Positions 2,580 to 43,521 of a stretch of DNA of 50,067 nt are shown piece by piece. Source of the stretch: a virus; the IMG/VR virus record IMGVR_UViG_3300042465_003699, positions 1-50,067 of that record, one strand, 5' to 3'. Under the pieces are notes generated by a model. That model did not search any database. It was not told the origin of the DNA and saw only the letters and a list, made by a program, of their open reading frames with translations. A program made the position numbers and the translations under genes. Position 1 is the stretch's first letter; every line of letters starts with the position of its first letter.

Positions 2580-2822
2580 TCACCAAGAGTCTACATTAGT
2601 GATGCAATAATCTTCTCCTACATAAGCGTTCATCCAATCTCCTGGAAGTAACGTGAATGTCTTAAGATTGTCGCTACAACTATTGCGTATAGTTACGCTG
2701 TAGTCAGCTGCATTATCAGATACAATTAATCCACAATTGCATTGACTATTTGGAGAATTTGAATCCTTCTCACATGACATAAATGCTAATGCCATTACTA
2801 AAATTACCATTACTTTTTTCAT
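2580..2822 (-). CDS. Putative lipoprotein, 80 aa
   Basis: The N-terminus is a classic lipoprotein signal peptide: MKKVMVILVMALAFMSC, with the lipobox cysteine at residue 17. After it come a short polar linker (EKDSNSPNSQ) and a small beta-rich domain with four more cysteines, so the mature part is probably a small outer-membrane or periplasmic lipoprotein held by disulfides. Phage lipoproteins often block superinfection or act in lysis; either role would fit, but the sequence alone does not decide. It lies upstream of 2397-2549 in the leftward operon. Confidence 0.7.
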   Translation of the reverse strand: MKKVMVILVMALAFMSCEKDSNSPNSQCNCGLIVSDNAADYSVTIRNSCSDNLKTFTLLPGDWMNAYVGEDYCITNVDSW

Positions 2823-2890
2823 ACTTACTTGTTTTAATTTACCCTTATATTGGGTATTGTTTATATTAAATTAACCTTTATTCTATTACT

Positions 2891-3349
2891 TTACAGATTA
2901 TATTCTTTTAGATATAATTCTATTACCCGAATTGATTTAGCTAAATCCTCGTGGAAATACCCTTTCTTTCGACAGCGTACAATACGTTTGATTATATCAA
3001 ATTCATAAGCATTTAATTTGTGTTGTTCTGCAAATAGATACAAGCTACCATTAGAATTATCGTAGTGCGCATCTGTTTCTTTAGGGATGTAACCATATTC
3101 TGATTCCGTTTCTGATTCTTTTTTAAGCCTATAGCCATCCTTTAACATCATTAAATTCTTTGCACGTTCTTTTGCTTCAGGAGACACATCTCTATCTGCA
3201 AAGTCTTTCTTTGGAATAGCAGCCTCATTTCCGTACTCATCGAACACTAGGTAGTCGTTATCGTACTCCTTGATAAGATTATACCATGTTCCACATATTA
3301 ATGAACCAAATCCATTACCTATGTACATTACTTTTTCCATTTTATTCAT
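2891..3349 (-). CDS. DUF3310-like protein, 152 aa
   Basis: The N-terminal ~50 residues look like a small beta-barrel (LVFDEYGNEAAIPKKDF). The C-terminal ~60 residues resemble the phage DUF3310 family: an HY start, then NAYEFDIIKRIVRCRKKG and an EDL motif with a helix to the end. DUF3310 proteins are common in phages and act around nucleotide or host metabolism, without a settled function. The family call is by motif memory. A second in-frame ATG three codons in (MEKVMYIG) is also possible. Confidence 0.6.
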   Translation of the reverse strand: MNKMEKVMYIGNGFGSLICGTWYNLIKEYDNDYLVFDEYGNEAAIPKKDFADRDVSPEAKERAKNLMMLKDGYRLKKESETESEYGYIPKETDAHYDNSNGSLYLFAEQHKLNAYEFDIIKRIVRCRKKGYFHEDLAKSIRVIELYLKEYNL

Positions 3350-3353
3350 GTTC

Positions 3354-3557
3354 TTAATTTTTATTAGAGAAGTCTCTACAATTATTACAATTTAGTAATC
3401 TATTTTTAAATCTTACTACTTTAGATTTTCTGTGGTGCTTCTTATAGTTGAACCCACTCTTACCTCTTGACTTATCTCTATCGAAGTCTATAGATGCACT
3501 ACTTACAATATTAAATGATGTCACCATCAATAATATTAACGATACTTTTTTTACCAT
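3354..3557 (-). CDS. Secreted basic peptide, 67 aa
   Basis: Residues 1-21 form a signal peptide (MVKKVSLILLMVTSFNIVSS, with a likely signal peptidase I site near SSA-S). The mature ~46 residues are very basic, rich in Lys, Arg and His (YKKHHRKSKVVRFKNR), and end with a C-x2-C pair (NCNNC). The composition resembles a cationic antimicrobial or surface-binding peptide. It is close to the amidoligase pair and could be a substrate for it; that is speculation. Confidence 0.6.
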   Translation of the reverse strand: MVKKVSLILLMVTSFNIVSSASIDFDRDKSRGKSGFNYKKHHRKSKVVRFKNRLLNCNNCRDFSNKN

Positions 3558-3571
3558 AATTATTTTATTAT

Positions 3572-3808
3572 TTACTCTACAATGAAAAACTTTCTTGCAT
3601 CATTAAGGGATACATCCATTATACTTGAATAGTAGAAGTCATACCATTCATTGAACCTATCTTGTATCTCTTCGGTATATACCGTTGTGTCGGAATTGAT
3701 ATCTAAGAACATCTCATCTTCACTTAAACATATATCACCTGATTCATACAATGTTCTAGTGTGAGCCAAATCACTAGCTAACTCTACTATATTAACTATT
3801 ACATCCAT
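3572..3808 (-). CDS. Hypothetical acidic protein, 78 aa
   Basis: An acidic, mostly helical protein starting MDVIVNIVELASDLAHTRTL and containing a Tyr/Trp-rich centre (RFNEWYDFYYSS). Its start overlaps the end of the upstream 40-aa gene by 17 nt, suggesting coupled translation. No family recognised. Confidence 0.65.
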   Translation of the reverse strand: MDVIVNIVELASDLAHTRTLYESGDICLSEDEMFLDINSDTTVYTEEIQDRFNEWYDFYYSSIMDVSLNDARKFFIVE

Positions 3809-3914
3809 AACTATTTAATTTTTGTTTACAACCCTCATACGAGCCCTCGTACAATACCTCTCGGCTACCTATAACCACTAATAGGTAACCGAACTCTCCT
3901 TGAATTATTTCCAT
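3792..3914 (-). CDS. Hypothetical small protein, 40 aa
   Basis: The open frame extends upstream to 4028 inside the amidotransferase gene. I place the start at the ATG at 3912-3914 because it lies 13 nt after that gene's stop and is preceded by an A/T-rich leader like its neighbours. The product runs MEIIQGEFGYLLVVIGSREV and on, with a beta-hairpin-like core and two cysteines near the C-terminus. An alternative start at 3947 would give 51 aa and overlap the amidotransferase by 20 nt. Its position directly after the enzyme pair makes it a possible accessory or substrate. Confidence 0.5.
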   Translation of the reverse strand: MEIIQGEFGYLLVVIGSREVLYEGSYEGCKQKLNSYGCNS

Positions 3915-3927
3915 GTTGATATTGATA

Positions 3928-4902
3928 TTAAGCCCCAAGACCTTCATTAAGATTCTTATTAAGTCTTTTGTATTCATGACCATAATCATCCTCATAAACT
4001 TTACGGCAGCTTGTACACATTGCAACATCTAAATCCTCATCCCAATGAGCCTCTAAGCTATCGCAAAAGTCACACGCATCATACGCATATAGATTTATGT
4101 TAGGATTCTCTCCTGTCTTAGCATATACCTCATCCTCGCACCAAGCACACATACCTTTATCTATTTCATTTATGCCATACAAAGTCATATCGCAGTTAGT
4201 ACATGAGTGTATATCTTTGTCATCTAATCCAAAGTATTTTGAATTCCACTTGCTACTATCTACCTTAGCCGCTACAGACGTAGTGCCAGGAGAAGTATAT
4301 CCTCCATACGCACCATAACTTTTGTATTTCTTGACACCTCCATAGTCAACATAGTTATTAACTTGTTTGTACGAAGAGTTAGAGAACCAACATTCCATAT
4401 TCCAATGCCCAGCTTTCTCGTTAGAGATAAAGAACTCATTGTTATCGTCAAGGAATATTAACTTATTACCTCCGATGAATACCTCAATCATCTCCATAAT
4501 AGAGTCCGAATACTGAAACCCTTGCTTAAGATTCTTAAGAACTTCCTCGTTGAACATATAAGTATCCGAGAAATCTTTACTCATAGGCATCTCGTATATC
4601 ATTCCATTGTGAACAAATCCGATAGACTCATCTACTAAGAATGGGTGGCAATTTGTCTCGTTGACTTTACCATGAGTACTGATCCTGAAGTGAAGGACAA
4701 TATTCTTTTTGCCATGCTTAGACTTGATGTCTATATAATTAGCATAAAAGTTATCAAAAGATAACATCTCCTTGAATGTAGAGAGTTTGTTGTTCTCATC
4801 AATATAGAGCATTCCTGCTCCATCACCATTGTTATCCCAACAATTCTTTAGGAGTTGCTTCTTTAAAGTTGCTGTCTTTGTATTTAAAATTGCTATACAC
4901 AT
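3928..4902 (-). CDS. Class II glutamine amidotransferase with zinc-ribbon tail
   Basis: I choose the ATG at 4900-4902, giving 324 aa, because it makes cysteine residue 2 (MCIAIL), the catalytic nucleophile of class II (Ntn-hydrolase) glutamine amidotransferases. A longer open frame exists but overlaps the amidoligase gene. Other family marks are visible: HFRISTHGKV (71-80), N84-x-HPF (86-88), HNG (98-100) and SDT (112-114). The family releases ammonia from glutamine for a partner enzyme. Residues ~234-299 hold four C-x2-C pairs (234/237, 252/255, 277/280, 296/299), probably two zinc ribbons. It lies 31 bases downstream of the amidoligase gene, the expected ammonia acceptor. Confidence 0.82.
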   Translation of the reverse strand: MCIAILNTKTATLKKQLLKNCWDNNGDGAGMLYIDENNKLSTFKEMLSFDNFYANYIDIKSKHGKKNIVLHFRISTHGKVNETNCHPFLVDESIGFVHNGMIYEMPMSKDFSDTYMFNEEVLKNLKQGFQYSDSIMEMIEVFIGGNKLIFLDDNNEFFISNEKAGHWNMECWFSNSSYKQVNNYVDYGGVKKYKSYGAYGGYTSPGTTSVAAKVDSSKWNSKYFGLDDKDIHSCTNCDMTLYGINEIDKGMCAWCEDEVYAKTGENPNINLYAYDACDFCDSLEAHWDEDLDVAMCTSCRKVYEDDYGHEYKRLNKNLNEGLGA

Positions 4903-4933
4903 AATATTATTTATTTTTAGTTTTGATATTGAA

Positions 4934-6460
4934 TTAAGCCCCCATTTCGTTAGAAGCATCAAGGTTATCATTAGGTCTATTACCTTTGATAATTCTTGGC
5001 ATAATCTTATCATTGTAAGATTCGCTGTAGCCAACAAATAAGTCTGCCTTTCTTTCAAGTTGATCCTGACTATACACTACTCTTAAGTGCTTGTATAGTT
5101 TACTTGTAGGATTAAGAAGCATCTTTAACACTTCTACCTCAGACTTACCCTTGTAGTATGCCGATGTTGTTTTATTAGCAGGCACTAACTTGATACTATC
5201 GCATAGGATACGCATCAAATCTCTTCGCCATATTAAGTTTGTAACATTCTTTACAGCAGATGGTATACGGAATTCAAGTACCTCACTCTTGATATAGATA
5301 GAAGACATCTTATCTCTGTCGAAATACTTATGTTTCTTCTTAGCTTTAGAGTAAGATGAATCAATTCGATGCTCATACATAGCATAGAATAGTGGGAAGT
5401 ATCCGCTAAGATGCTCAAATAACTCCGTAGTATTCAGGAACGAAGAGCCTATATTAATATGTCCACCACAACTACTAGATGAATTAGCATTGATAAGCTT
5501 GATTAGTCTAGCATCTTTTATATCCTTGTCCATCATTGAATCGTATAAGTCAAAGGCAGGAGAAATTAACTCATAGCCATTATCTCCATCCAAAGATCCA
5601 TCATTCTCTTTGCACCATCCTAACTCATTATGTATTGGATAGTATGGTATCTCGCAAGCATCATTGTCTTCTTTCTCAATCTCGAATCCAATGGTAAACC
5701 TAGAGCCACTAGTGTACTTTGTTACTCTATTTAAAGAATGATAATCCGCATTATCCTTATCTGTATCGGGAGTATCGCACCACTCATCAACGTCATCATT
5801 GTAGTAAAGATTATGATTTTCTGCTGTCTCACCATTGCGATAGTAGTCTCCGTTGTATTCTATTACATCACCGTGTCTATCTAGGAAGTACTCCATTCTA
5901 GGTGAACTTGATACATATCCATAGTATACATCTTCCGATGATGTATCTATATATTCTGACTCATAGGATGAGTAATGCACACTGCTTGGCTCATTGCCTG
6001 ACATGAAATACATATCCATGTGCTCTACATACATAGCGTCATCACACAAACAATAAATGTCCCCATAGTCACAATATATAAGGTCATCTCTATGAGCATA
6101 CTCAGTCTCTGAGTGTCCAATTAGTTGACAATCATCTTTATGATACTTTTCTCCATCGTAACAAAGTATCAAGCCGTCATCCTCTATTGCCTCTATCTCT
6201 TGCTCATCATCGCTAAATATTTTAGCCCATTGGTCTAGTGGATAGACCTCAATACCTTCACCTATTGGAGTACGTATTTTGTAGGTTACTTGTCCATCTA
6301 CTATCCCGTAATAGTAGCCATCCATTCCACCGAATTGGTGGTAATCTCCAGGATTGTTGCCCCATTGGCGATTAATCCAACAGATAAACATATCTGCATT
6401 CTCATTACTGCTGTCATACTTCACATAGAAGTTGTTCAAATCAATTGTTGTTCTTTTCAT
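4934..6460 (-). CDS. Amidoligase-family enzyme, 508 aa
   Basis: The C-terminal half carries the motifs of the amidoligase superfamily (glutamine-synthetase-like carboxylate-amine ligases): GFEIE (258-262), DGSLDGDNGYELISP (287-301), CGGHIN (331-336) and VLEFRIPSAVKN (394-405). Such enzymes join an amine or ammonia to a carboxylate using ATP and are known to pair with class II amidotransferases, as here. The N-terminal ~245 residues are unusual: very rich in Tyr, Asp and His, with scattered cysteines and repeated YH/DD elements, perhaps a degenerate metal-binding or substrate-recruiting region. The substrate is unknown; a peptide, a cell-wall component or a small metabolite are all possible. 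Confidence 0.82.
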   Translation of the reverse strand: MKRTTIDLNNFYVKYDSSNENADMFICWINRQWGNNPGDYHQFGGMDGYYYGIVDGQVTYKIRTPIGEGIEVYPLDQWAKIFSDDEQEIEAIEDDGLILCYDGEKYHKDDCQLIGHSETEYAHRDDLIYCDYGDIYCLCDDAMYVEHMDMYFMSGNEPSSVHYSSYESEYIDTSSEDVYYGYVSSSPRMEYFLDRHGDVIEYNGDYYRNGETAENHNLYYNDDVDEWCDTPDTDKDNADYHSLNRVTKYTSGSRFTIGFEIEKEDNDACEIPYYPIHNELGWCKENDGSLDGDNGYELISPAFDLYDSMMDKDIKDARLIKLINANSSSSCGGHINIGSSFLNTTELFEHLSGYFPLFYAMYEHRIDSSYSKAKKKHKYFDRDKMSSIYIKSEVLEFRIPSAVKNVTNLIWRRDLMRILCDSIKLVPANKTTSAYYKGKSEVEVLKMLLNPTSKLYKHLRVVYSQDQLERKADLFVGYSESYNDKIMPRIIKGNRPNDNLDASNEMGA

Positions 6461-6492
6461 GGTATATTTATTTATTTTGATATTGAATTATA

Positions 6493-7263: not shown

Positions 7264-7311
7264 AATTTTAATTTTGCTCTACTACGTTACGTTGATAGTG
7301 AGGATTTTAAC

Positions 7312-7341
7312 AAAAAAAAAGGGAAACTTTCGAATCCCTTT
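7312..7341 (-). terminator. Intrinsic terminator, leftward
   Basis: On the minus strand an AAAGGGA (7341-7335) / TCCCTTT (7324-7318) stem with a 10-nt loop is followed by a run of U (A-run at 7312-7320). It lies right after the first two leftward genes and would limit transcription to them unless read through. Confidence 0.8.
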
Positions 7342-7362
7342 TGTGCTGGTTTTTGATCTTTT

Positions 7363-7581
7363 TTACAAAGCATATTTTGTTTTGCGTTTGCTTTGCCGTT
7401 CTTGTTTCCGCTTCGCTTTAATATCAATCCAATTCATTTGATTTTCAACCTTTGCTTGAATGGATGCTATTTTATTACCTTTGCAAAATTGCTTCTGATT
7501 AGTTACAATAATTGCTTCACTAATTATATCAACTTCAGTAAAGAAAGCGTTTGCCGTTACTATTCTAGTTCTTAATTTCAT
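7363..7581 (-). CDS. Hypothetical basic protein, 72 aa
   Basis: The open frame reaches 7644, but I place the start at the ATG at 7579-7581, one base after the stop of the upstream gene, matching the spacing of other junctions here. The product begins MKLRTRIVTANAF and ends in a strongly basic tail (KAKRKQERQSKRKTK), suggesting nucleic-acid binding. It is second in the short first leftward operon, just before the terminator. Confidence 0.6.
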   Translation of the reverse strand: MKLRTRIVTANAFFTEVDIISEAIIVTNQKQFCKGNKIASIQAKVENQMNWIDIKAKRKQERQSKRKTKYAL

Positions 7582-7582
7582 A

Positions 7583-8020
7583 TTATACCAATTGTAAAGC
7601 GTTAACAACTGAAGCAATTTTTTTGCTTTCTGTATTGTTCGCAAGGTGACTTTTGCCCTCGCTAGCTTTCAATATAGAAAATAAACCCGTAGCGAATAAC
7701 TCCAATTTAGAAAGCTTAAAATCGAAACCAATTGATAAGAAAGACTCGCAATCATTCAATGAATAGTCAACACCATTGACACAAACGTACAAATTAAATT
7801 TTTTGTTAATAAAGAATTTTTGTCCGCCCAAAACAAAATTATTAACTTTCATTTGTTTTGCAAATTGAATAGATTGATTAACAGCCGTTACAATTTCACA
7901 TACGATTTTAATCGCCTCATCCGTTTCTTTGTACTCTAATTGTCTAGTGTTTGCACTAACCAACGTTTCAACTTTCTTAGTACTTTGTACTTGTTCGAAT
8001 TTTAAATTTACTACTTTCAT
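7583..8020 (-). CDS. Hypothetical early protein, 145 aa
   Basis: First gene of the leftward arm, behind the best host-type promoter in the window and a ~150-nt leader. It has no signal peptide and no cysteine cluster. It contains a central beta-rich stretch (NNFVLGGQKFFINKKFNLYV) and helical ends. As the promoter-proximal gene it is likely expressed immediately on infection, so a host-takeover or regulatory role is plausible but unsupported by motif. Confidence 0.7.
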   Translation of the reverse strand: MKVVNLKFEQVQSTKKVETLVSANTRQLEYKETDEAIKIVCEIVTAVNQSIQFAKQMKVNNFVLGGQKFFINKKFNLYVCVNGVDYSLNDCESFLSIGFDFKLSKLELFATGLFSILKASEGKSHLANNTESKKIASVVNALQLV

Positions 8021-8172
8021 TTTACTTTATTTTAGTTATTAATTAAATTACATAATTATCCCATTGAAAAACCATTTATCGAAAATCTAATTTCATTTGG
8101 CAGGATTCACCAATGGGCAGTACTATTCAGGGCGAGTTTTCGTCGCTTGTTCCTCTATGTTGCTCGTTTGCT
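8021..8172 (-). other. Long structured 5' leader of the leftward operon
   Basis: From the predicted transcription start near 8172 to the ATG at 8020 there are about 150 untranslated bases. On the minus strand they can form a CATTGG/CCAAATG hairpin with one bulge (8094-8115) and a GCGA/TCGC hairpin (8132-8146). No known riboswitch class is recognised. An A/T-rich unstructured stretch precedes the start codon. Confidence 0.4.
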
Positions 8173-8178
8173 ACACAA

Positions 8179-8208
8179 CAAAGATAAGTATACATTTCCG
8201 ATAAACAA
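8179..8208 (-). promoter_or_regulatory. Strong Bacteroidota-type promoter, leftward
   Basis: On the minus strand, TTG (8208-8206), exactly 19 nt, then TATCTTTG (8186-8179). This matches the TTG / TAnnTTTG host consensus. It would start the leftward arm. Confidence 0.8.
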
Positions 8209-8252
8209 CATAAAATTTAAATTATTTTACATATTTTTTATAATTTATAATG

Positions 8253-8264
8253 ATTCTAAATAAG
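8253..8264 (+). promoter_or_regulatory. Operator-like half site 1
   Basis: The 12-mer ATTCTAAATAAG, identical to the right half of the palindrome at 8327-8349. Its left half is degenerate, so this may be a weaker site for the same dimeric DNA-binding protein. Confidence 0.4.
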
Positions 8265-8326
8265 GTTTTTTTTTACTTTAAATTAGGATATGTGGTATTT
8301 TTTTACTATAAGCAAAGTTACCATCG

Positions 8327-8349
8327 TTATCTAGAATAATTCTAAATAA
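8327..8349. promoter_or_regulatory. Operator-like palindrome 2
   Basis: A near-perfect 23-bp palindrome: TTATCTAGAAT, centre A, ATTCTAAATAA, with only one mismatched pair. The core TAGAAT-A-ATTCTA is perfect. It shares its right half with the sites at 8253 and 8417-8437. Confidence 0.6.
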
Positions 8350-8363
8350 GCCATACGTGTGAT

Positions 8364-8398
8364 ATTCTCAATTTGGGAAACATTCTCAAAATGGGAAA
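8364..8398 (+). repeat. 18-nt direct tandem repeat, two copies
   Basis: ATTCTCAATTTGGGAAA (8364-8380) is followed with an 18-nt period by ATTCTCAAAATGGGAAA (8382-8398), two differences in 17. It lies between operator sites 2 and 3, so it may be a separate protein-binding array. Confidence 0.65.
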
Positions 8399-8416
8399 AA
8401 AGATCTGGAAATCAGC

Positions 8417-8437
8417 TATTTAGAATGAATCTAAATA
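8417..8437. promoter_or_regulatory. Operator-like palindrome 3
   Basis: A perfect 8-bp inverted repeat, TATTTAGA (8417-8424) and TCTAAATA (8430-8437), separated by five bases. It shares the TCTAAATA half with the two sites upstream, giving three related sites spaced about 80-86 bp apart. Confidence 0.6.
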
Positions 8438-8444
8438 AGATATA

Positions 8445-8455
8445 GTACAATGTAC
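8445..8455. repeat. Short palindrome GTACAATGTAC
   Basis: A perfect 11-bp palindrome with a single central base, 8 bp from operator site 3. It could be another small binding site. Confidence 0.35.
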
Positions 8456-8501
8456 CATAAGTAAAACGGGAAATGGCTTCGAGTTATGGTAGAAAGTACA
8501 A

Positions 8502-8517
8502 TAACTAAAGATAGTTA
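8502..8517. repeat. Inverted repeat TAACTA-AAGA-TAGTTA
   Basis: Six-bp arms separated by four bases. No gene or terminator is adjacent, so a protein-binding site is more likely than a terminator. Confidence 0.35.
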
Positions 8518-8647
8518 CCTATGAATTTAGTTGAATGATTTTAAACTGATCTTTCCTTTTGAAATGGGGAGGGGATATATATACATGTGTAAGTCCTTTG
8601 TAGACACAGAATAAAAAAACCATGGGAAACCAAAGAATATTTAAGGT

Positions 8648-9334: not shown

Positions 9335-9509
9335 GATCCTTGAGTATTCTCATAGTGATGATTCTTGCCTTCTTGAGTATGGAACTATACTATACGTTGA
9401 TGGAAGTGAGGAGGGGATTCAGGTTAGCAATAGTATATGCGATATACTTCTTGTGCTGGATTTACTTAATATCGAAGTTGAAATAGAAAGAACTTATGAA
9501 GTATGGTAA
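9315..9509 (+). CDS. Hypothetical protein, 64 aa
   Basis: A small acidic protein overlapping the end of the HNH gene. I favour the ATG at 9315 (MKRVKIEILEYSHSDDS), a 20-nt overlap; an earlier in-frame ATG at 9288 is possible. The sequence looks like a small alpha/beta fold. Its stop overlaps the ATG of the next gene (ATGGTAA), suggesting coupled translation. Function unknown. Confidence 0.6.
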   Translation: MKRVKIEILEYSHSDDSCLLEYGTILYVDGSEEGIQVSNSICDILLVLDLLNIEVEIERTYEVW

Positions 9510-9907
9510 AGCAAAAAATATACCTAGCAGGAGGGTTTAGAACCGACTGGGCTAATGAGATAAGAAAATGCTCCGACAATTTCCAATGGATAAATCCAAA
9601 AGATAAAGAGTTTAAGAACGGAGAAAGAATTACAATGAATGTAAACGAATATGGTAAATGGGATTTGCATTTTATAAAACAATGCGATATAATATTTGTA
9701 TATGTAGATAGAAGTAATTCGAGTTGCATTGGGTTATGTTGCGAGGCTGGTTTTGCAAAAGGATTAGGAAAAACAGTAATACTTGTTTTAGAACCTAATC
9801 ATGAAACAATAAAAGATTCTTATTTATCATTTATAACTCAAGTAGCAGACATTGTTTTTGAAGATTTAGAAAGCGGAATGGATTACTTAAAATCATTTGA
9901 GATATGA
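9503..9907 (+). CDS. Nucleoside 2-deoxyribosyltransferase-like protein, 134 aa
   Basis: Begins with the YLAGGF motif of the nucleoside 2-deoxyribosyltransferase-like fold. Around residues 60-90 it has DIIFVYVDRSNSS, CCEAGFAKGLGK and a following beta strand, matching the D...E-x-G-x-A...GK pattern of the family; the glutamate is the usual nucleophile. Such enzymes swap or hydrolyse the base of (deoxy)nucleosides. It overlaps the PP-loop gene by 4 nt, so the two are probably produced together, pointing to nucleotide salvage or synthesis of a modified nucleotide. Confidence 0.75.
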   Translation: MVKQKIYLAGGFRTDWANEIRKCSDNFQWINPKDKEFKNGERITMNVNEYGKWDLHFIKQCDIIFVYVDRSNSSCIGLCCEAGFAKGLGKTVILVLEPNHETIKDSYLSFITQVADIVFEDLESGMDYLKSFEI

Positions 9908-10785
9908 ATAAAATAATTTGCTGGTGGAGTGGAGGAATAACATCTGCTGTAGCGTGTAGGATTGCTATTGATATCTATGGAGTTGAAAATTGTAAAATTA
10001 TAATGATTGACACAAAGAATGAGCATCCTGATACTTATAGATTTAAGAGTGATTGTGAGGTATGGTACAATTTACCAATAGAAACAATAACTGGCATTGG
10101 TGAGAAGTATGGAAATATATTTGATGTATGGAGGAAGCATAAATCTTTAAACACAGCTACTGGAGCTATATGTTCTACTCACTTAAAAAGATTAGTTCGT
10201 CAAAAATGGGAGAAAACAAATACATTTAAGCATCAAGTTTTTGGTTTTGAGTTTGAAAAGAAAGAGTTTAATAGGGCAAAATCTATGACCGTTAACTATT
10301 CAGATAAAGCAAAACCTATTTATCCACTACTCTTGATGGGTTATGATAAACAAGATTGTTTTAAGATTGTTGAAGACGCTGGAATCAAGATACCTGAAAG
10401 CTATATCATAGGACTTAATAATAATAATTGTCTACTAACTGGATGCGTTCAAGGTGGAGTTGGTTATTGGCAGAAACTTAGAGATATACTTCCTGAAAAA
10501 TTTAATATAATGGCAGACTTTGAGCATGAGTTAACCGATTTAAGGGGAGAACCAGTAACAATGCTAAAGGATCAAAGCAATGATGCAAAAGAAAAAATGA
10601 AAATTGATGCTAAAAGTCATTTAGTTTTTCTTAAATTTAACCCAAAATATCCAAATAATAAATGCTTAGATGATATGCCGTTACGAAAAGTAGAGCCTTT
10701 ATTTGAATGTAATGGAATGTGTGGCATAAATGATTTATCAGAACGTACACAAACAGAACTAGATTTAAATTATGAAAATGATTAA
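9904..10785 (+). CDS. PP-loop ATPase, PAPS reductase-like, 293 aa
   Basis: The N-terminal WWSGGITSA (residues 7-15) is the PP-loop that binds ATP in the PAPS reductase / ATP pyrophosphatase family. Further marks are a conserved CSTHLKR (about 91-97), NNNCLLTGCVQGGVGYW (about 174-190) and a C-terminal CNGMCG (about 269-274), typical of phage members of this family. The family activates a substrate by adenylation, often for sulfur transfer or reduction; the several cysteines might hold an Fe-S cluster or carry sulfur. It overlaps the deoxyribosyltransferase-like gene by 4 nt. Confidence 0.8.
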   Translation: MNKIICWWSGGITSAVACRIAIDIYGVENCKIIMIDTKNEHPDTYRFKSDCEVWYNLPIETITGIGEKYGNIFDVWRKHKSLNTATGAICSTHLKRLVRQKWEKTNTFKHQVFGFEFEKKEFNRAKSMTVNYSDKAKPIYPLLLMGYDKQDCFKIVEDAGIKIPESYIIGLNNNNCLLTGCVQGGVGYWQKLRDILPEKFNIMADFEHELTDLRGEPVTMLKDQSNDAKEKMKIDAKSHLVFLKFNPKYPNNKCLDDMPLRKVEPLFECNGMCGINDLSERTQTELDLNYEND

Positions 10786-35073: not shown

Positions 35074-38000
35074 ATGGCTACAAGCTCTAAAGACTTAATG
35101 TCTACTCAAACTGGTGGATTTGGCGAAACTATACAATCTTCTCCAGAATCAGAAGTTACAGCAGAACAATTCAATATAAAACTTCCAAAACAACAAGTTC
35201 AGGCTAGTGTACAACCAAGTGCACAGCCTGAAGCTATTGTTCCTACACAAGATATTCCTACAGCTCCAATTCAAGAAGAGGTTATTCAGCCTGAAATTCA
35301 AGCAGAACAATCAAGTGAAGACAGATTATATTCTGAGTTAAATTTAACACCAGTAAATCTGCAAGGATTCAATGAAGAAATGTTCGTTGACCAACCTAGA
35401 GAAAGTGCTATTAAGCCTCAAGGCTCATACACAGAGGATGGTTTATATATTAGTGAAGATCCAAATCCAATAGTTCAACCAGTAGAAACTAAAACTGAAG
35501 AAGTAATTAATGAAGAGCCAATGTCTCTCATTACAGAAGATGGACTATCTATCGGGAGTCCTGAGCAAGACAAGAAAGTTGAGTTAGATAAAATCAATAC
35601 AACTTATAAAGCTTCTGGTATTAAGGTAGATAGCGATGGAGTTGTACGAAAGGTAAACAAAGACGATAAAGAAAAACCTAATGGAACTTATGTATACGCT
35701 GGTCAGCCAGATGCTATGTATAAAAAAGTAGGTAAAGATAAGTGGCTTAAAGATTACGATAGTTCTGGAAATTTCCTTCCTATAGAAAAAGATGCAGCTA
35801 GAAGAATAGCATTATTAGAAAGAGATGCTAAACAAGTTGGAGATGGGAAAGATGTTAAGTCAAAAGCATCAATTAATACTGATAAAAATATATCAGAAAG
35901 ATTTGGTAATATAACTGACTTTAATGCTAATTCTGTTTTAACTGCATCTGGAAGCCCAATGGTAGCAGATAATATAGCGTTTAATACATTAATAAGAAAA
36001 AATATAGGTTCTGAAACTGAAAGATATAATCAGGATGGAACTTTAAATTTTAATTACGATGAGAAAAAAGCTGAAATACAAAAGTCTTTACCAAGAGAAG
36101 TAGCTAATCTAGTAGATTATAAAGGGAAACCTGATGGTATTTATTCACTTCCTGATAGCGATGCTAGCTTCAAAAAGTCAGGTAATAATTGGTATAAAGC
36201 AGGATCTGTAAATGGTAAATATCAACCATTAACTGAAGGAGATGTAAATCAAAGAATAGAAAAGCTAGAAAAGTATGCATATAGAACACCAAAGGTTAGC
36301 GAGATAGCTACATTAAGAACTGACGGACAGAAATTAAACATAAAAGCTTTCGGCACTGGATATGCTAACATGGTTGATGAGACTAATAGACTTTTAAATT
36401 CAGATGCATTAAATAAAGTTGATTTATACGATAAAGCATTTGAAGATGCTAATGAGTTCATTAACAAGGATGTAAATATGTTAATGGGAGATAAATTATC
36501 CCAAGAACAAAAAGATGGTATAATCCAAAAGCAACAAGAGATAAAGAAAATAATAGGAGACGGAAAATACGATGTAGCTAAAGCATCTGTAATTGCTGAA
36601 TCATTGAAAGATGCAGAAGAATTCTTTAATGCATCTAAGGCATTTAACGTAAAAGTAAATGAAGGTGTTCAGCAAGGAAAGAGTTTAGCTAGAATGTCTC
36701 TAGATAATAAAAAGAAAACATATTTAGAACACTTTGATTTAAAAGATGATTCAAATATTCAGATAAATGCAAGAGAGTTGTTTGAGATAACATCAAAAAT
36801 GTCTGACTTTGTGCTAGAGAATATTGAGAATGGGAACATGAGGGCCGACACTAAGAATGGTGGATATATATACTCTCCATCATTAAATTCAAAAGAAAGA
36901 AATTACATAGAGTCTAAATTGTCTTCAATGAATGAGGCTTATGATAAATTTAACAATGAAAGATACTCAGCTACAAACGATAGAATAATTCAGCAAAAAT
37001 CTAATAAAGAAAATACTCAATTTAATATAGAAAAATTAGAAAAATCATTAGCTGTATTTGGAGGTGATTCATCAAGACCAGAGTATCAGGATTTATATAG
37101 ACAACTATTAAAGGAAAGAAAAAAGTTAGAATACATTGATATAATTATAGAGGATGAAGAAATTTCTAAGTCTACTGTATTTTTAACTCAACCTAAAAAA
37201 TTGGTTCAGGCAGTATCTACTAATATGTCTCCAATGGCAGAAAATATATTTAATGCTATACCTTCAGATATAACTCCTAAGCAAAGATTTGATTTTTATT
37301 ATGAGCAACTACAAGCAGATAATAATAAATTAGCAAAAGATAATAATCTAGACGATGGATATTTTCAATCTGTTAATAGAAGATTTAAAGATTTATTTGA
37401 CTGGGATGGATTTTATAAATTATCAGACGTAGAGAAGACATACCTTCAAAATGTAGGTACTCTAAATCAAATGTCTACATTGTATTATAATAATGATACT
37501 GGGTTTACAAATGAGTCAACTGGATTTTTTGAGTCATTTATGAATGGTATTGCTCAAACATTAACTCCAAAAACAGCTAAGGCAGATGGATATTTTGCTA
37601 AGTCTGAGATGAATAATACAATGATTTCTGAATTGACTAATCAAGGATTTGATCCTGATGGATATGTTGATAAGGCTACAATTCAAAGAATGGAGGAAAG
37701 AGCTGCTGTTGATTTTATGAGTCGTGAGAATCTTGGTAAAATGGGCGGTTCTACAGTTGGTATTATTACTCCACTTGTGCTTACTGGAGGGGTAGGGCCT
37801 GGAATTTTAAAATTAGGAGTTGGATTAGAGAAATTATTAGTTGGAGTTCAAGGTACTAGCAAGGTATTAACTACCCTAAATAAAGCTGAAAATATATATG
37901 ATGCTACTTTATCAACTACAAAATTAGGTAGATTCTTGTTGCCAGTATCTAAAGCTGGTATTGAGCAAGGTATTAAATTTGAGATTGGTGGATCTGTAGT

Positions 38001-41000
38001 CGGATCTACAGAAGGAGAATTAAATTGGTTTAATGGATTAGCTGGTGGTATTCTATCTGAATCTCTTACTGGAATAATGGCTGGAGCACCTAAGACTGAG
38101 GCGTATAAATGGGTTAAGTCAATATTTGGCAATAAGACTAGCGATGCTATTGATATAATGAAAAGTGCTGGAAAGATTTCAGCAAGAGGGGTAGCGGAAA
38201 TAGGTGACGAAACTGGCTCTCAGTTAGCTAGTATATATAGCCAAACTGATAACTTTCAAGAAATGATGTCTGCTATTGAGGAGCAATATGGATCTATTGA
38301 TAAGGTTGAAGAATTCTTATTGTCAACATTTGTTATGGGTTCTGCATTTAGCATAGTATCGCCAACCAGTAGTAAAGAAGCATACTTCGCATTACCTGAT
38401 GATAAGAAAGCTAGATTAGATAAAATACTTGCTCAAATAGGAGCTGACGTAGCTTCTGCTGAGAGATCAGTTAGTGAATACGCAGAATATGTTAAGACTA
38501 AAGAAGGAAAGAAAGAAGCAATAGATAAATTAGAAGATAAATCCGTAGTAAATGATCAAGAAAACGAGCCAGGGGTATCAGGTGAAGTCGCAAAAGGGAA
38601 AGAACCTATCAAAACCGAACCTATCGTTGGGGCAGGCAAAGAAGAGGTTAGCCCTAGTGGAGTGGTTCAAGAAGAACCCACAGAAGTAGACACTAAGAAA
38701 GTTGATATTGAACAACGAAGACAAGACGAGATAACAGCACTTGAGGCTAAATATAAAATTGACAGATCTAAAGAGCCAGTAGTTGGTGCTTATGGAGTAG
38801 TTGAGGTTGAGTCTGAAAGTTTCAAAGCTGCAAGAGATAAAATCAATGCTAAGTATGATGCTGAATTAGCTGCTGTAAAGCCAGTAGTCGAAACTGAAGA
38901 AGCTCCAATGGCAGAAGCGGTAGCTAAAACTCCAGAAGAAAACTATGCCACAGCACAAGAAGTAAATAATAAGATAGCAGAAGAAAATCCTGATGCAAGT
39001 GTATTATTAACTCCTAAAGGAGATGATTTAAATTTAACTGCTGTTTATGTAGGAAAAGAAAATCGTGGCAAAGGCATAGGAACAAAGGTACTTGAAACAG
39101 TAAAATCAGAGGCTGATAGAACGGGTAAGAAAATAGTTTTAGATACTACAAATGAATTGGATTCTGAAACTAACTTGGAAAGGTTAGGTAATTTTTATGA
39201 GAAAAATGGCTTTAAAAAAGTTGGTGAAAATAAATTTGAATACAATCCACAAGCAGCAGTTACTGAAGAGGCAGCTCCAGAATTAGTAAGCACACCATTA
39301 ACAGAAGAAGAGGTCGCTGGTAAACAAGAAGTTGAATCATCTGTTGGACTTGTTACTATTAAGAATCCTATAAAAGTATTAAAAGGATTGTTTGGCAAGA
39401 AGAATGCTGACGGAAGTATTCGTACTGCTCATCCTGGAGTTAAAGGAACTTGGGGAGCATTGGATGAATCTATTGCTAAAAGATATAAAGGAGAAGACGA
39501 AAAAACACTTACAGAATTTTCTATTCCAGCAGGAACTACAGTTGAAACAATAGAGGTAGATTCTAAAGGTAAGCCAGTTAGTCAAGTTAGACAAGAGGAA
39601 ACTGATGCAGTTAACAACTCTACTGCTCAGGTAGTTAGGCTTGTAACTATGGATTCAGGTTCTTCTAAAAAAGAAAGTCAAATCATAATTAAAGACGAAA
39701 CTTTATCTAAATCACCAGAATCGTCAACAGAAAAAGCAGCTCCAAAAGAAAAAGCAGAATCATGGCAGGATAGGATTGATAGACCAATGACTAATGAAGA
39801 ATTAAATGCATTTAGAACTTCAATTAGAAATAAGTTTCCAGATAGTTATGCGTCTGAAATACTTGACTTAGTTGCCGAAGCTAGAAAAGGAGAAGTAAAC
39901 AATTTACCTTATGAATTAGATAATTTAGCAGATGAAATTACTATTAATGATATAGGAAATTTATTATCTGAAGATGATTTATTTGATTCTAGAGAGAAAT
40001 TAAACGCTTATTTAAGAGATAGATCTAATGCTGGTGATATGTTAAATATTACTAAAGAGTCAAAAGAAGAATCTAAAATAGAAGAAAAATTTGAATCTTT
40101 AGGCGATAGGATTCGTGCTGGTAAAATAAGTGGAACTGGAATGGCAATGTCTGCTATACCTGGATTTAAAGAAGCGTTTAATGGCTCATTAGAAATAGTA
40201 GCTACAGCAGTAGACGCAGGAGTAAGTATTGCAAAGGCTATAACTGAAGGATTTAAAAAAATTAAAGAATCTCAATGGTACAAAGATTTAGGTAAAGAAC
40301 AGAGAGCTCAAGCTTTTGAAGATTATAAAAAGGGAATGAATGAAAAGTTTCCTAAAAAGAGAGTTAGCAAAGCAGAAAGAGATGCAGCTAAAGAGTTTAA
40401 AGCAAAAGTAGACGAAGCAACTGGAACAGCTAAAGAAGAGCCTACTGTATCAATGACTAATAGTCAAGTATTAAGAGAGCAGTTAAAAAATAAAGAAGCA
40501 GGAGCTAAAGACGCAGTTAAATTCATTCAAGGGATGAAAGAGCAGATTAGAGCTTATGCTAAACAAAATCTTCCAAAAGAACTTTACTCTAAAGCTCAAT
40601 TAGATTTATTAATGAATTCAATAAGTAAAGCTAAAACAGCTAAGGCATTAGACACAGCCATTACTAGAATTGATAAAATGGTTGAGAATAAAGCTGAAGC
40701 TAAAAGAATTTTAACAGCTAAAAATATTGTAAAGAAAATAAAAAATAAAAGAGAATTCTTAACTAAGGTAAACGATAAGTGGAAAGGTAAAACTACAGTT
40801 GAATCTCAGAGAGAATTTAAGGAATTTATTAATAGTGGAGCTTTAGATGATTTAGAATTAAAGACTCAGGAAGAGTTAGATGCTATAATGGAAATTATAG
40901 ATGCTATCATAAGTACTGGTAAAGCAGATTTTAAAACTATAAAAACTAAACAAGAAGAAACTAAAAGAAAAGAAAATGCAACACTACTTAAGGGTTTAGC

Positions 41001-43521
41001 TAAAACTCCAGATGTTATCTTAAATGGAGAAGCAGAAGTTGTTGAGTTCCTAGAGAATGGTGGATCTGTTATTATAGATGGTCAATTATATAAAAAAGCT
41101 CAATTTAATAGCTTAAAGCCAACTAATCTTTCTAATGTTGAAGGTTATAAAGCACAAAATATATCATATATTAGAGAAGCGGTAAGAAGAAGAGATGCTA
41201 ATGTATTTAAACGAGTAGCTAGAGGATTAAATCCACTTAATGCTATGTCTGATATATATTCATTATTGAAAAACACTTGGGCGAAGAGTGATGCTGTAAA
41301 AAAATATGTTACTGATAATATAGAAAAACCATTAATTAAAGCTATGCACGATATATTGAATGGTCAAGCAGTTAAGATAAGAGAATATTATGCTGGATTT
41401 AATGAAATATTTGGTTCTAAAAAGAAAGGTCTAGATAGACTAGCTGAAACAATATCTAATGAAGAAAATCCAGTAACTAGTAGATTAAGTTATGAGATAA
41501 CTAATTCTCACATGGTAAATTACTATAATCTATCAAGAGTAGAAGATGGTGTTAGAAGATTAGCTTTTTCTGGTGTTAATGCAACCGATGTAGCTAAGTA
41601 TATGGATAAAAATCAAGATCTTAAGGATTATGCTGATTTCTTAATGCAGAAATACGAGGATAATAAAGTAGATTATGAACCAGTATATGAAGCGGCTACT
41701 GGCATGCCATTTCCTGAGAAGTTATACTATCCAGAATATGCATCTAATTTTGAGCAAGATTTTATTGATGTAAATTCAGTATTAAATAATGATGGATCAA
41801 TAAACGCCATGAGTGCTGTTACAAATAATGTAAAGCAAAGAACATCCTTTAAAGGCCAATATGATTTAAGTATGAATGCACATAACGTATATCTTGATTA
41901 TATAAAGAATATGGAGCATTCAAGAAATCTATTTGAAATAGCTAAAAAAACTAATCAATTATTTAGTACTACAAATGCACCACACTTAATAGCTAATATG
42001 GGCTTAGATAAGTATAATGAATTAAGAGAACACATGGCGGTTATACTTAGTAATAGTATGCCAAAAACAGGAACTACATTGTATAGCAAAGGCGTTAGTG
42101 GTTTGCTTAATTTTAGTGTATTATCTACTCTTGGATTTAAACCAGCGAGTGTTCTTAAACAGTTTACTTCATTTACTCACTATTGGACAGCTGGTATAGC
42201 TGATGGAGTTGATCCTTGGCAAATATGGGGAGCAACCATACCTACAAGTAAAGAAGAATGGAAATTTATATATTCATTAATGACTAGTGATTATATAAAT
42301 GACAGAAGAAAAGGCGGATCTATTGATGTTGAAGCAAAAAAAGTATTAGATGCAGCTGCAAAATCAAAGTCAGCTAAAGCATGGACTGCGGCTACTCAAT
42401 TAGCAATGTCTCCGATTATAGGTGGGGATTTAGCAGCTGTAATATTCGGCCCAGGTGGCGGTAGTGCTTTTGCTTTAGCTACATATAGACAAAGACTATC
42501 TGAAGGCATGAGTAAAGAAGAGGCTGCTGATTACGCTTATAGAAGGTGGGTAGAAGAAACAGAAAAGACACAACAATCAACTAGAGTAGATTTAACAAGT
42601 AATATACAAAGAGATCCATTATGGAGAATGGCTGGAACATATAGAACTGGACAAGCTTCTATGGCTAAAAAGGTTATAAATGCCGTTAAATTATTAAGCT
42701 CTGGAACTACATTGACTACTCGTGAAAAAGCGCAAGCAATAACTGATATAGTATATTTTACTACGTTAGGATCTGTAGCTTTCTCAGTAGTTGCATCTGG
42801 AGCAGTAGGAGCAATGATGTCAAGTGATGATGATGAAGATAAAAGAATTACGCATGATATATTTTGGGATCAAATAGGTTCTGATTTACAAGGTTATGGT
42901 GCTATTGGACATATAGGAGATTGGGCGTTAAATGCAATGAGAGGAGATATTTGGAAAAATAATATTCCAGTAGTTAATTTTGCTCAAAAACTTGCTCAAT
43001 TACCATCAATAATACCAGCTGCTAGCTATAGAAAGTTTGAAGATTTATCTAAAGAAGATCAACTTAAATTTGCTTCAGAGGCTGGTGCAGTAGATATATT
43101 TGGAAATGTTGGTGGTGAATACATTAATCAATTTGATCCTGAAGTTGTAGCAAAATTATTTGAAGAATATAATAATCAGATATTTTGGAATAAATTAACT
43201 GATATGGAATCTAGAGATTTTTATAAATCAATTGGAGCTAAAAATATAGATGATTTAATTAGCAATATGACTGATTATATTAAAGGAGATAAAGAATTAT
43301 TTGATGCTTTGATGAATTACGAAGATGACTACTTTAAAATATCTAAAGAAAGAAATAAAGTAGATTATCTATATAAAATATTTAATGAAGGAGAAGATTA
43401 TATCATTGATGAAGAACAAGGGTATAAAATCAATGAAGTTAAACTTCCTACTAAGCCTGCAAAAGTTATAGAAGCTTATCCAACTGGTGAAAAGCAGAAA
43501 GTTTACAAAACATATAACTAA
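35074..43521 (+). CDS. Giant internal virion protein with embedded GNAT domain, 2815 aa
   Basis: The largest gene here. In order: a disordered N-terminus (1-150, Gln/Glu/Pro-rich); two copies of a ~50-residue module with a KP-N/D-G-x-Y start and a W-containing core (201-250 and 352-401); long helices; a hydrophobic Gly-rich stretch (about 890-925); a low-complexity linker (about 1145-1290); a GNAT acetyltransferase-like domain (about 1290-1390; acetyl-CoA loop NRGKGIGTKVLE, then YEKNGFKKVG); a beta domain of unknown type (about 1423-1550); a helical part; and near the C-terminus a probable membrane helix (about 2558-2583, FTTLGSVAFSVVASGAVGAM). Size and place indicate an ejected cargo protein; the acetyltransferase may act in the host after entry. 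Confidence 0.75.
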   Translation: MATSSKDLMSTQTGGFGETIQSSPESEVTAEQFNIKLPKQQVQASVQPSAQPEAIVPTQDIPTAPIQEEVIQPEIQAEQSSEDRLYSELNLTPVNLQGFNEEMFVDQPRESAIKPQGSYTEDGLYISEDPNPIVQPVETKTEEVINEEPMSLITEDGLSIGSPEQDKKVELDKINTTYKASGIKVDSDGVVRKVNKDDKEKPNGTYVYAGQPDAMYKKVGKDKWLKDYDSSGNFLPIEKDAARRIALLERDAKQVGDGKDVKSKASINTDKNISERFGNITDFNANSVLTASGSPMVADNIAFNTLIRKNIGSETERYNQDGTLNFNYDEKKAEIQKSLPREVANLVDYKGKPDGIYSLPDSDASFKKSGNNWYKAGSVNGKYQPLTEGDVNQRIEKLEKYAYRTPKVSEIATLRTDGQKLNIKAFGTGYANMVDETNRLLNSDALNKVDLYDKAFEDANEFINKDVNMLMGDKLSQEQKDGIIQKQQEIKKIIGDGKYDVAKASVIAESLKDAEEFFNASKAFNVKVNEGVQQGKSLARMSLDNKKKTYLEHFDLKDDSNIQINARELFEITSKMSDFVLENIENGNMRADTKNGGYIYSPSLNSKERNYIESKLSSMNEAYDKFNNERYSATNDRIIQQKSNKENTQFNIEKLEKSLAVFGGDSSRPEYQDLYRQLLKERKKLEYIDIIIEDEEISKSTVFLTQPKKLVQAVSTNMSPMAENIFNAIPSDITPKQRFDFYYEQLQADNNKLAKDNNLDDGYFQSVNRRFKDLFDWDGFYKLSDVEKTYLQNVGTLNQMSTLYYNNDTGFTNESTGFFESFMNGIAQTLTPKTAKADGYFAKSEMNNTMISELTNQGFDPDGYVDKATIQRMEERAAVDFMSRENLGKMGGSTVGIITPLVLTGGVGPGILKLGVGLEKLLVGVQGTSKVLTTLNKAENIYDATLSTTKLGRFLLPVSKAGIEQGIKFEIGGSVVGSTEGELNWFNGLAGGILSESLTGIMAGAPKTEAYKWVKSIFGNKTSDAIDIMKSAGKISARGVAEIGDETGSQLASIYSQTDNFQEMMSAIEEQYGSIDKVEEFLLSTFVMGSAFSIVSPTSSKEAYFALPDDKKARLDKILAQIGADVASAERSVSEYAEYVKTKEGKKEAIDKLEDKSVVNDQENEPGVSGEVAKGKEPIKTEPIVGAGKEEVSPSGVVQEEPTEVDTKKVDIEQRRQDEITALEAKYKIDRSKEPVVGAYGVVEVESESFKAARDKINAKYDAELAAVKPVVETEEAPMAEAVAKTPEENYATAQEVNNKIAEENPDASVLLTPKGDDLNLTAVYVGKENRGKGIGTKVLETVKSEADRTGKKIVLDTTNELDSETNLERLGNFYEKNGFKKVGENKFEYNPQAAVTEEAAPELVSTPLTEEEVAGKQEVESSVGLVTIKNPIKVLKGLFGKKNADGSIRTAHPGVKGTWGALDESIAKRYKGEDEKTLTEFSIPAGTTVETIEVDSKGKPVSQVRQEETDAVNNSTAQVVRLVTMDSGSSKKESQIIIKDETLSKSPESSTEKAAPKEKAESWQDRIDRPMTNEELNAFRTSIRNKFPDSYASEILDLVAEARKGEVNNLPYELDNLADEITINDIGNLLSEDDLFDSREKLNAYLRDRSNAGDMLNITKESKEESKIEEKFESLGDRIRAGKISGTGMAMSAIPGFKEAFNGSLEIVATAVDAGVSIAKAITEGFKKIKESQWYKDLGKEQRAQAFEDYKKGMNEKFPKKRVSKAERDAAKEFKAKVDEATGTAKEEPTVSMTNSQVLREQLKNKEAGAKDAVKFIQGMKEQIRAYAKQNLPKELYSKAQLDLLMNSISKAKTAKALDTAITRIDKMVENKAEAKRILTAKNIVKKIKNKREFLTKVNDKWKGKTTVESQREFKEFINSGALDDLELKTQEELDAIMEIIDAIISTGKADFKTIKTKQEETKRKENATLLKGLAKTPDVILNGEAEVVEFLENGGSVIIDGQLYKKAQFNSLKPTNLSNVEGYKAQNISYIREAVRRRDANVFKRVARGLNPLNAMSDIYSLLKNTWAKSDAVKKYVTDNIEKPLIKAMHDILNGQAVKIREYYAGFNEIFGSKKKGLDRLAETISNEENPVTSRLSYEITNSHMVNYYNLSRVEDGVRRLAFSGVNATDVAKYMDKNQDLKDYADFLMQKYEDNKVDYEPVYEAATGMPFPEKLYYPEYASNFEQDFIDVNSVLNNDGSINAMSAVTNNVKQRTSFKGQYDLSMNAHNVYLDYIKNMEHSRNLFEIAKKTNQLFSTTNAPHLIANMGLDKYNELREHMAVILSNSMPKTGTTLYSKGVSGLLNFSVLSTLGFKPASVLKQFTSFTHYWTAGIADGVDPWQIWGATIPTSKEEWKFIYSLMTSDYINDRRKGGSIDVEAKKVLDAAAKSKSAKAWTAATQLAMSPIIGGDLAAVIFGPGGGSAFALATYRQRLSEGMSKEEAADYAYRRWVEETEKTQQSTRVDLTSNIQRDPLWRMAGTYRTGQASMAKKVINAVKLLSSGTTLTTREKAQAITDIVYFTTLGSVAFSVVASGAVGAMMSSDDDEDKRITHDIFWDQIGSDLQGYGAIGHIGDWALNAMRGDIWKNNIPVVNFAQKLAQLPSIIPAASYRKFEDLSKEDQLKFASEAGAVDIFGNVGGEYINQFDPEVVAKLFEEYNNQIFWNKLTDMESRDFYKSIGAKNIDDLISNMTDYIKGDKELFDALMNYEDDYFKISKERNKVDYLYKIFNEGEDYIIDEEQGYKINEVKLPTKPAKVIEAYPTGEKQKVYKTYN

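Follow-up and report, generated by a model that had tools for sequence, protein, structure and literature searches.

The window, by which we mean the whole stretch of DNA analysed, corresponds to an IMG/VR virus record 50,067 bases long; most long contigs of its closest relatives reach 61-65 kb, so the record is probably incomplete and the window a fragment. Two adjacent genes on its (-) strand concern us here, and they and their parts are as follows:

4934..6460 (-), predicted amidoligase gene, 508 aa (glutamine synthetase (GS)-fold COOH-NH2 ligase, Amidoligase_2-like), from motifs, profile and model
6176..6460 (-), ligase residues 1-95, of lower model confidence and absent from relatives L003 and L005
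5741..6175 (-), Tyr/Asp-rich ligase N-terminal region, residues 96-240, with many short strands, from the model and column counts
5012..5701 (-), ligase catalytic core, residues 254-483, from conserved columns in 65 relatives and a model pLDDT of about 95-98 over most of the core
4903..4933 (-), intergenic spacer, 31 bp (25-35 bp in close relatives)
3928..4902 (-), predicted class II (Ntn) glutamine amidotransferase (GATase) gene, 324 aa, with a Met-Cys start, from motifs, family and fold
4324..4902 (-), predicted glutaminase domain, GATase residues 1-193, from invariant residues and PDB fold matches
4006..4203 (-), GATase C-terminal cysteine region, residues 234-299, with four CxxC forming two putative C4 zinc sites, from conservation

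The coordinates, strand, 31-bp gap and motifs that the original prediction gave for both genes proved exact. The ligase carries G258-F-E-I-E262, D287-GSLDGDNGYELISP301 and C331-GGHIN336, and the motif set of its core (residues 254-483) reads G-F-E-I-E-K, E285/D287, E297, C-G-G-H334, R365, E396-x-R398 and R412. Residues G258, E260, E262, K263, E297, G332, G333, H334, R365, E396, R398 and R412 are each present in 65/65 relatives, and because the core is kept in this way the motifs are far beyond chance. The Amidoligase_2-type residue order (G-x-E-x-E, D-G-S...E, C-G-x-H, R, E-x-R) is present, and the second His of C-G-x-H-x-H is Asn in the window ligase, at a column that varies in the clade (N in 37 and H in 20 of 65).

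When used alone as a query the window ligase matched no Pfam, PHROG or NCBIfam model, and PF12224 (Amidoligase_2) gave no match at E<=1. Amidoligase_2 is matched weakly by 14 of the 65 ligase relatives at E<=0.1 (best 2.2e-05), and profile-profile comparison of the ligase with Amidoligase_2-type relatives, a set that includes L006 and L007, which match Amidoligase_2 directly, gave a probability of 97.9 and an E of 5e-13. The predicted structure has a mean pLDDT of 90.3; glutamine synthetases were its top matches in a PDB search, which also returned GmaS, PafA/Dop and YbdK (top E 2.1e-04, prob 0.99), and a BFVD search returned many viral amidoligases with E down to 8.7e-18, and the best viral model matches are annotated amidoligases, with Pseudomonas phage tf, crAss-like phages and Cellulophaga phage phi14:2 among their sources. 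The TM-scores of the PDB matches are low (about 0.2) because the N-terminal region and the domain layout dominate the superposition, and the family assignment therefore rests on motif order, profile and fold jointly. A ryanodine-receptor match (E 0.013) was taken as chance. By these three lines the product of 4934-6460 (-) is a predicted glutamine-synthetase-fold amidoligase.

The N-terminal region of the ligase is a run of short strands modelled with high confidence, and it is Tyr/Asp-rich as had been claimed. Its description as metal-binding-like did not hold: column counts in the relatives found no conserved Cys/His clusters (LIM/zinc-ribbon-like), so we do not call it metal-binding. Cys111 is the only largely kept cysteine there (12/16 close relatives), the others vary freely, and profile comparison gave the region no match to the Cys-rich N-termini of other ligases. 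A lone BFVD match to the ligase model named 'LIM domain containing protein' is suggestive only. In more distant ligases that are paired in this way the N-terminus is rich in CxxC. Two ideas about these regions were rejected, namely that the window N-terminus represents the Cys-rich repeats of other ligases with the cysteines lost (profiles did not match, and there is a marginal internal repeat only, E 0.02) and that a zinc region has been swapped between the partners (ligase N-terminal CxxC and GATase CxxC show no anticorrelation).

Called mechanically, the GATase open reading frame begins at an upstream TTG inside the ligase gene and is 376 aa long. The start at 4902, which was chosen in the original prediction and exposes Cys2, is judged correct because Met-Cys stands at the same column in 69/69 aligned relatives and leaves a gap of 25-35 bp in close relatives. 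The motifs M1-C2, N84-C-H86-P-F, H98-N-G100 and S112-D-T114 lie at exactly these positions, and all of the active-site positions checked (Cys2, Arg73, Thr76, His86, Asn99-Gly100 and Asp113) are invariant in 69/69 relatives. In Pfam the protein reached 6.3e-05 with GATase_4 (22.5 bits, cut-off 23), with GATase_6 also just under its cut-off; a GlmS model matched at 1.6e-07 and TIGR03442 EgtC matched weakly. The predicted structure (pLDDT 82.5) has as its best PDB folds the GlmS glutaminase (1xff, 9.7e-08) and then EgtC (4zfk, 2.5e-05). Judged from motif, family and modelled fold, the product of 3928-4902 (-) is a class II glutamine amidotransferase with a predicted intact glutaminase. Profile and structure comparison found the expected families (Amidoligase_2-like and GATase) for the two proteins, and the first of the two refuting outcomes named beforehand, a profile search giving unrelated families, did not occur.

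The four CxxC pairs at the GATase C-terminus (C234/C237, C252/C255, C277/C280 and C296/C299) fit two putative C4 zinc sites in a region over which the model is only moderately confident. C277/C280/C296/C299 are kept in 15/15 of the closest relatives and C234/C237/C252/C255 in 13/15, and many other GATase relatives have one pair. Of the extra metal-binding-like regions ascribed to the two proteins, then, that of the GATase stands, as two C4 sites conserved in the closest clade, and that of the ligase N-terminus falls; neither the ligase N-terminus nor the GATase CxxC, both earlier called less usual, is unusual for its family.

Some further features of the window may be recorded here. A TTCAATATCAAAA-like sequence lies just before the ligase and GATase starts (6475-6487 and 4921-4933, (-)) and a variant of it lies right after the GATase (3914-3926, (-)); it shows a weak window-wide enrichment (16 compared with 8 expected) and could be a recurring leader or an element for expression. 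The two genes have GGGGCTTAAT as their last letters, and an Rfam search found no RNA elements. A small lipoprotein-like gene at 2580-2822 (-) has relatives downstream of the pair in several loci, and its MSCEKD signal is like that of surface lipoproteins in Bacteroidota, which hints weakly at the host. Farther away, a PAPS-reductase-like PP-loop protein (9904-10785, (+)) is 51% identical over its length to a Croceibacter phage P2559Y protein and adjoins a nucleoside deoxyribosyltransferase-like gene (9503-9907), and a 2815-aa virion-region protein (35074-43521, (+)) has, by eye, an embedded GNAT-acetyltransferase-like stretch (NRGKGIGTKVLETV). The terminase and capsid have remote matches or none, and the portal is weakly like that of a crAss-like phage.

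The original prediction also held that the two genes should co-occur across phages, and near-universal adjacency in non-redundant viral loci bears this out. Viral contigs were scanned twice, independently, with the ligase as seed in the first scan and the GATase in the second, with counts on non-redundant loci and adjacency taken as within 250 bp. A GATase lies within that distance on the same strand in 44/50 ligase-seeded loci; among the six exceptions four run off the contig end, one has its GATase at a distance of 689 bp, and in one the ligase is split, with the second part 23 bp from the GATase. From the GATase side a ligase is adjacent in 49/51 loci, both exceptions being truncated contigs, and no untruncated locus without a partner was present among the 50 and 51 loci. 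In BLAST clustering the ligase is the only conserved neighbor of the GATase (80/83 non-redundant loci; the next family has 10). The distances of the two proteins correlate (r = 0.565, with 0/2000 permutations as high), a correlation that linkage alone would give. The two genes also stay side by side in distant types (L007, L009, the L128-L163 group with Cys-rich ligases, L006 and two Coriobacteriia contigs), and one other record, IMGVR_UViG_3300042889_000965 (L001, 29.9 kb), carries both proteins at 100% as well as the flanks. The pairing is close to obligate.

A pattern scan of 84,980 prokaryote species genomes found two distant relatives only, both in Coriobacteriia and each with the ligase overlapping the GATase start; the scan used two short patterns, which makes rarity in cellular genomes an impression only. 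In these two (L169 and L170, Adlercreutzia) the ligase has a Cys-rich repeat N-terminus and nearby genes look, on reading, like those for a Y-family DNA polymerase and an SRAP/YedK-type protein; the region is possibly an integrated element. In L003 the stretch downstream of the pair (7266-8647) holds a RadC-like JAB gene and after it another amidoligase-like protein, a shorter one of 303 aa. The JAB gene, which is next to the pair in L003-L005, was considered as a third component and rejected, as it is present in only 1/9 related contigs.

Variants of the arrangement exist. Seven non-redundant loci (L026, L046, L056, L058, L066, L067 and L070) have one GATase between two ligases. A tree built from 71 ligase cores traces six of the seven to one old duplication, with support of 100/99 for the upstream copies and again for the downstream ones, and L026 to a separate duplication (support 95/85); the ligase-GATase-ligase arrangement arose at least twice. 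The gene order ligase-GATase-ligase-GATase in L060 suggests as the route that the whole pair was duplicated in tandem and one GATase was then lost. A gamma-glutamyl cyclotransferase (GGCT) gene is associated with some pairs. In L103, a member of the window clade, it lies 31 bp upstream of the ligase in a three-gene set (2869-4939); in L146 and L148 it lies about 4 kb downstream of the pair, and it was also found in StenR_269 and UFV-P2. In L171 (MW202828.1, 3923-5140) a GATase of the pair type is fused to a GGCT domain on its C-terminal side (GGACT 7.5e-18) and the fusion, which the record names only gamma-glutamyl cyclotransferase, ends in CxxC motifs and comes immediately after a 574-aa protein with weak similarity to the ligase family. 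GGCT was absent from the window, whose record is probably incomplete, and from 12/13 related contigs in a search in which the control StenR_269 was positive. PF14395 and PF14398 had no match in the window or its relatives in a search in which the positive-control phage was also silent.

The above observations show that the two genes travel together, and the two adjacent enzymes very probably work together, one freeing ammonia from glutamine and the other building amides with ATP, but what would the reaction be? Enzymes of the GS fold use ATP together with ammonia or an amine, and synthetases partnered by a class II GATase receive their ammonia from it. The explanation that we think best, and probable though well short of certain, is a two-protein glutamine-dependent amidoligase that would act as follows: Cys2 of the GATase, exposed on removal of Met1, would hydrolyse the gamma-amide of glutamine; the ligase would bind Mg-ATP through its E-x-E / E / H / E-x-R residues, activate a substrate carboxylate as an acyl phosphate and form an amide with the ammonia freed by the GATase. 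The ammonia supply by Cys2, the acyl phosphate and the amide product are drawn from what is established about the chemistry of GS enzymes and class II GATases. The ligase N-terminal region and the GATase zinc sites would most likely dock the substrate or the partner, and the target would most likely be a glutamyl- or DAP-type carboxylate of a host cell wall peptide or of a protein. The families, the fold, the intact active-site residues and the near-obligate adjacency are the observed basis of this explanation; that the two proteins form a complex, that ammonia passes between them and that the reaction is an amidation is inferred, as is the class of substrate. Counted against it are that enzymes of the GS type can work with free ammonia and do not strictly require a dedicated glutaminase, the low TM-scores of the ligase PDB matches, and the recurrent link to GGCT, which fits the making and unmaking of gamma-glutamyl bonds at least as well as amidation.

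This last point belongs to the main rival, a pair like EgtA/EgtC in which the ligase would attach a glutamyl group (or couple the carboxylate of a glutamyl group with an amine), and the gamma-glutamyl amide would later be hydrolysed by the Ntn enzyme, which would not supply ammonia. EgtC is indeed the second fold group for the GATase (4zfk) with a weak TIGR03442 match, and GGCT recurs (the MW202828.1 fusion, 31 bp upstream in L103, near the pair in L146 and L148, and in StenR_269), but the closest sequence and fold match of the GATase is the GlmS glutaminase and not EgtC, and GGCT is missing from the window and most related contigs (12/13); we regard this reading as rather unlikely. Peptidoglycan is a specific-substrate version of the best explanation, in which stem-peptide carboxylates would be amidated or cross-ligated during infection to block superinfection or tune lysis. 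It has been put forward for phiEco32- and RIO1-type cassettes (PMC5498523; PMC10580990), and MurT/GatD, which amidates D-Glu of peptidoglycan with a different ligase and a class I GATase, is a chemical precedent (PMC3267633). However, the window and its relatives have the two genes only and not the cassette, with GGCT absent in the window and 12/13 relatives, and no cell-wall enzyme is conserved beside the pair; we regard this substrate as a tentative candidate, possible but doubtful.

Modification of DNA or a nucleotide precursor, in which the pair would amidate a carboxylated base and so evade restriction, might be suggested by the PAPS-reductase-like PP-loop and nucleoside deoxyribosyltransferase-like proteins 3-6 kb from the pair. 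However, both lie on the strand opposite to that of the pair and are not among its conserved neighbors, and no base-modification enzyme pairs with the ligase-GATase; we consider this very improbable. A bolder reading, unlikely in our estimation, is that the pair is a self-contained phage gamma-glutamyl editing machine, in which the strand-rich N-terminus would grip a polymer or protein to which glutamyl groups are added or amidated, and in some phages the GATase would serve two ligases or gain a fused cyclotransferase that undoes the bond. If true, this would amount to a conjugation-like modification that is encoded by the virus and can be reversed.

Amidoligase-GATase pairs as such are already known in phages, having been published for tf in 2012, UFV-P2 in 2014, Pseudoalteromonas phages in 2017 (PMC5498523) and OM43 phages in 2023 (PMC10580990); Iyer et al. 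2009 is the founding analysis, as cited in these later papers. They recur in phages whose hosts differ widely, the substrate guessed at in print is cell-wall peptides (PMC10580990; PMC5498523), and in the open-access literature searched no biochemical substrate is established for PF12224 proteins. Among 50,697 annotated phages no relative of the window ligase was found at E 1e-5 and the best GATase matches were 43% identical over 56%; judged by sequence, the window pair is a diverged clade without an annotated close relative. New here are the window clade, the single GATase with two flanking ligases, and the GATase-GGCT fusion beside a ligase-like gene.

How does the window pair compare with these and other known systems? 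The phage pairs (those of Iyer et al. 2009 as cited, Marvin gp105/gp106, OM43 MEP401/402 and L007) share with it the gene order, a ligase directly 5' of a Met-Cys GATase, as well as the core motifs and a homologous GATase. The window clade differs in a ligase unrecognised by Pfam alone, a Cys-poor Tyr/Asp-rich ligase N-terminus in place of CxxC repeats, and two putative C4 sites on the GATase. The 'peptidoglycan modification cassette' of phiEco32, LUZ24, tf and RIO1 likewise combines a protein of Amidoligase_2 type with a class II GATase, there within an early region, but adds a further COOH-NH2 ligase, ATP-grasp and GGCT genes, and genes may separate its ligase and GATase; in the window type only the pair is conserved and GGCT was not found in the window. 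That the pair is the conserved unit without the rest of the cassette narrows the problem, in that the two proteins should suffice to reconstitute the reaction. Concrete hypotheses come from the variants too, since both the doubling of the ligase around a single GATase and the fusion of a GATase to a cyclotransferase point to gamma-glutamyl chemistry. Glutamine synthetase, GmaS and PafA, the best solved-structure matches to the ligase model, have no sequence-level match to the window ligase, which adds the strand-rich N-terminal region and a separate glutaminase partner. The GlmS glutaminase domain and EgtC share fold and active-site residues with the window GATase. The latter, however, is a domain that stands alone, carries a cysteine region at its C-terminus and has a ligase as its partner in place of an isomerase or the ergothioneine pathway. 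MurT/GatD, with its Mur-ligase fold and class I GATase, is not homologous to the window pair but works as that pair is proposed to work, by a two-protein ATP-dependent amidation logic (PMC3267633).
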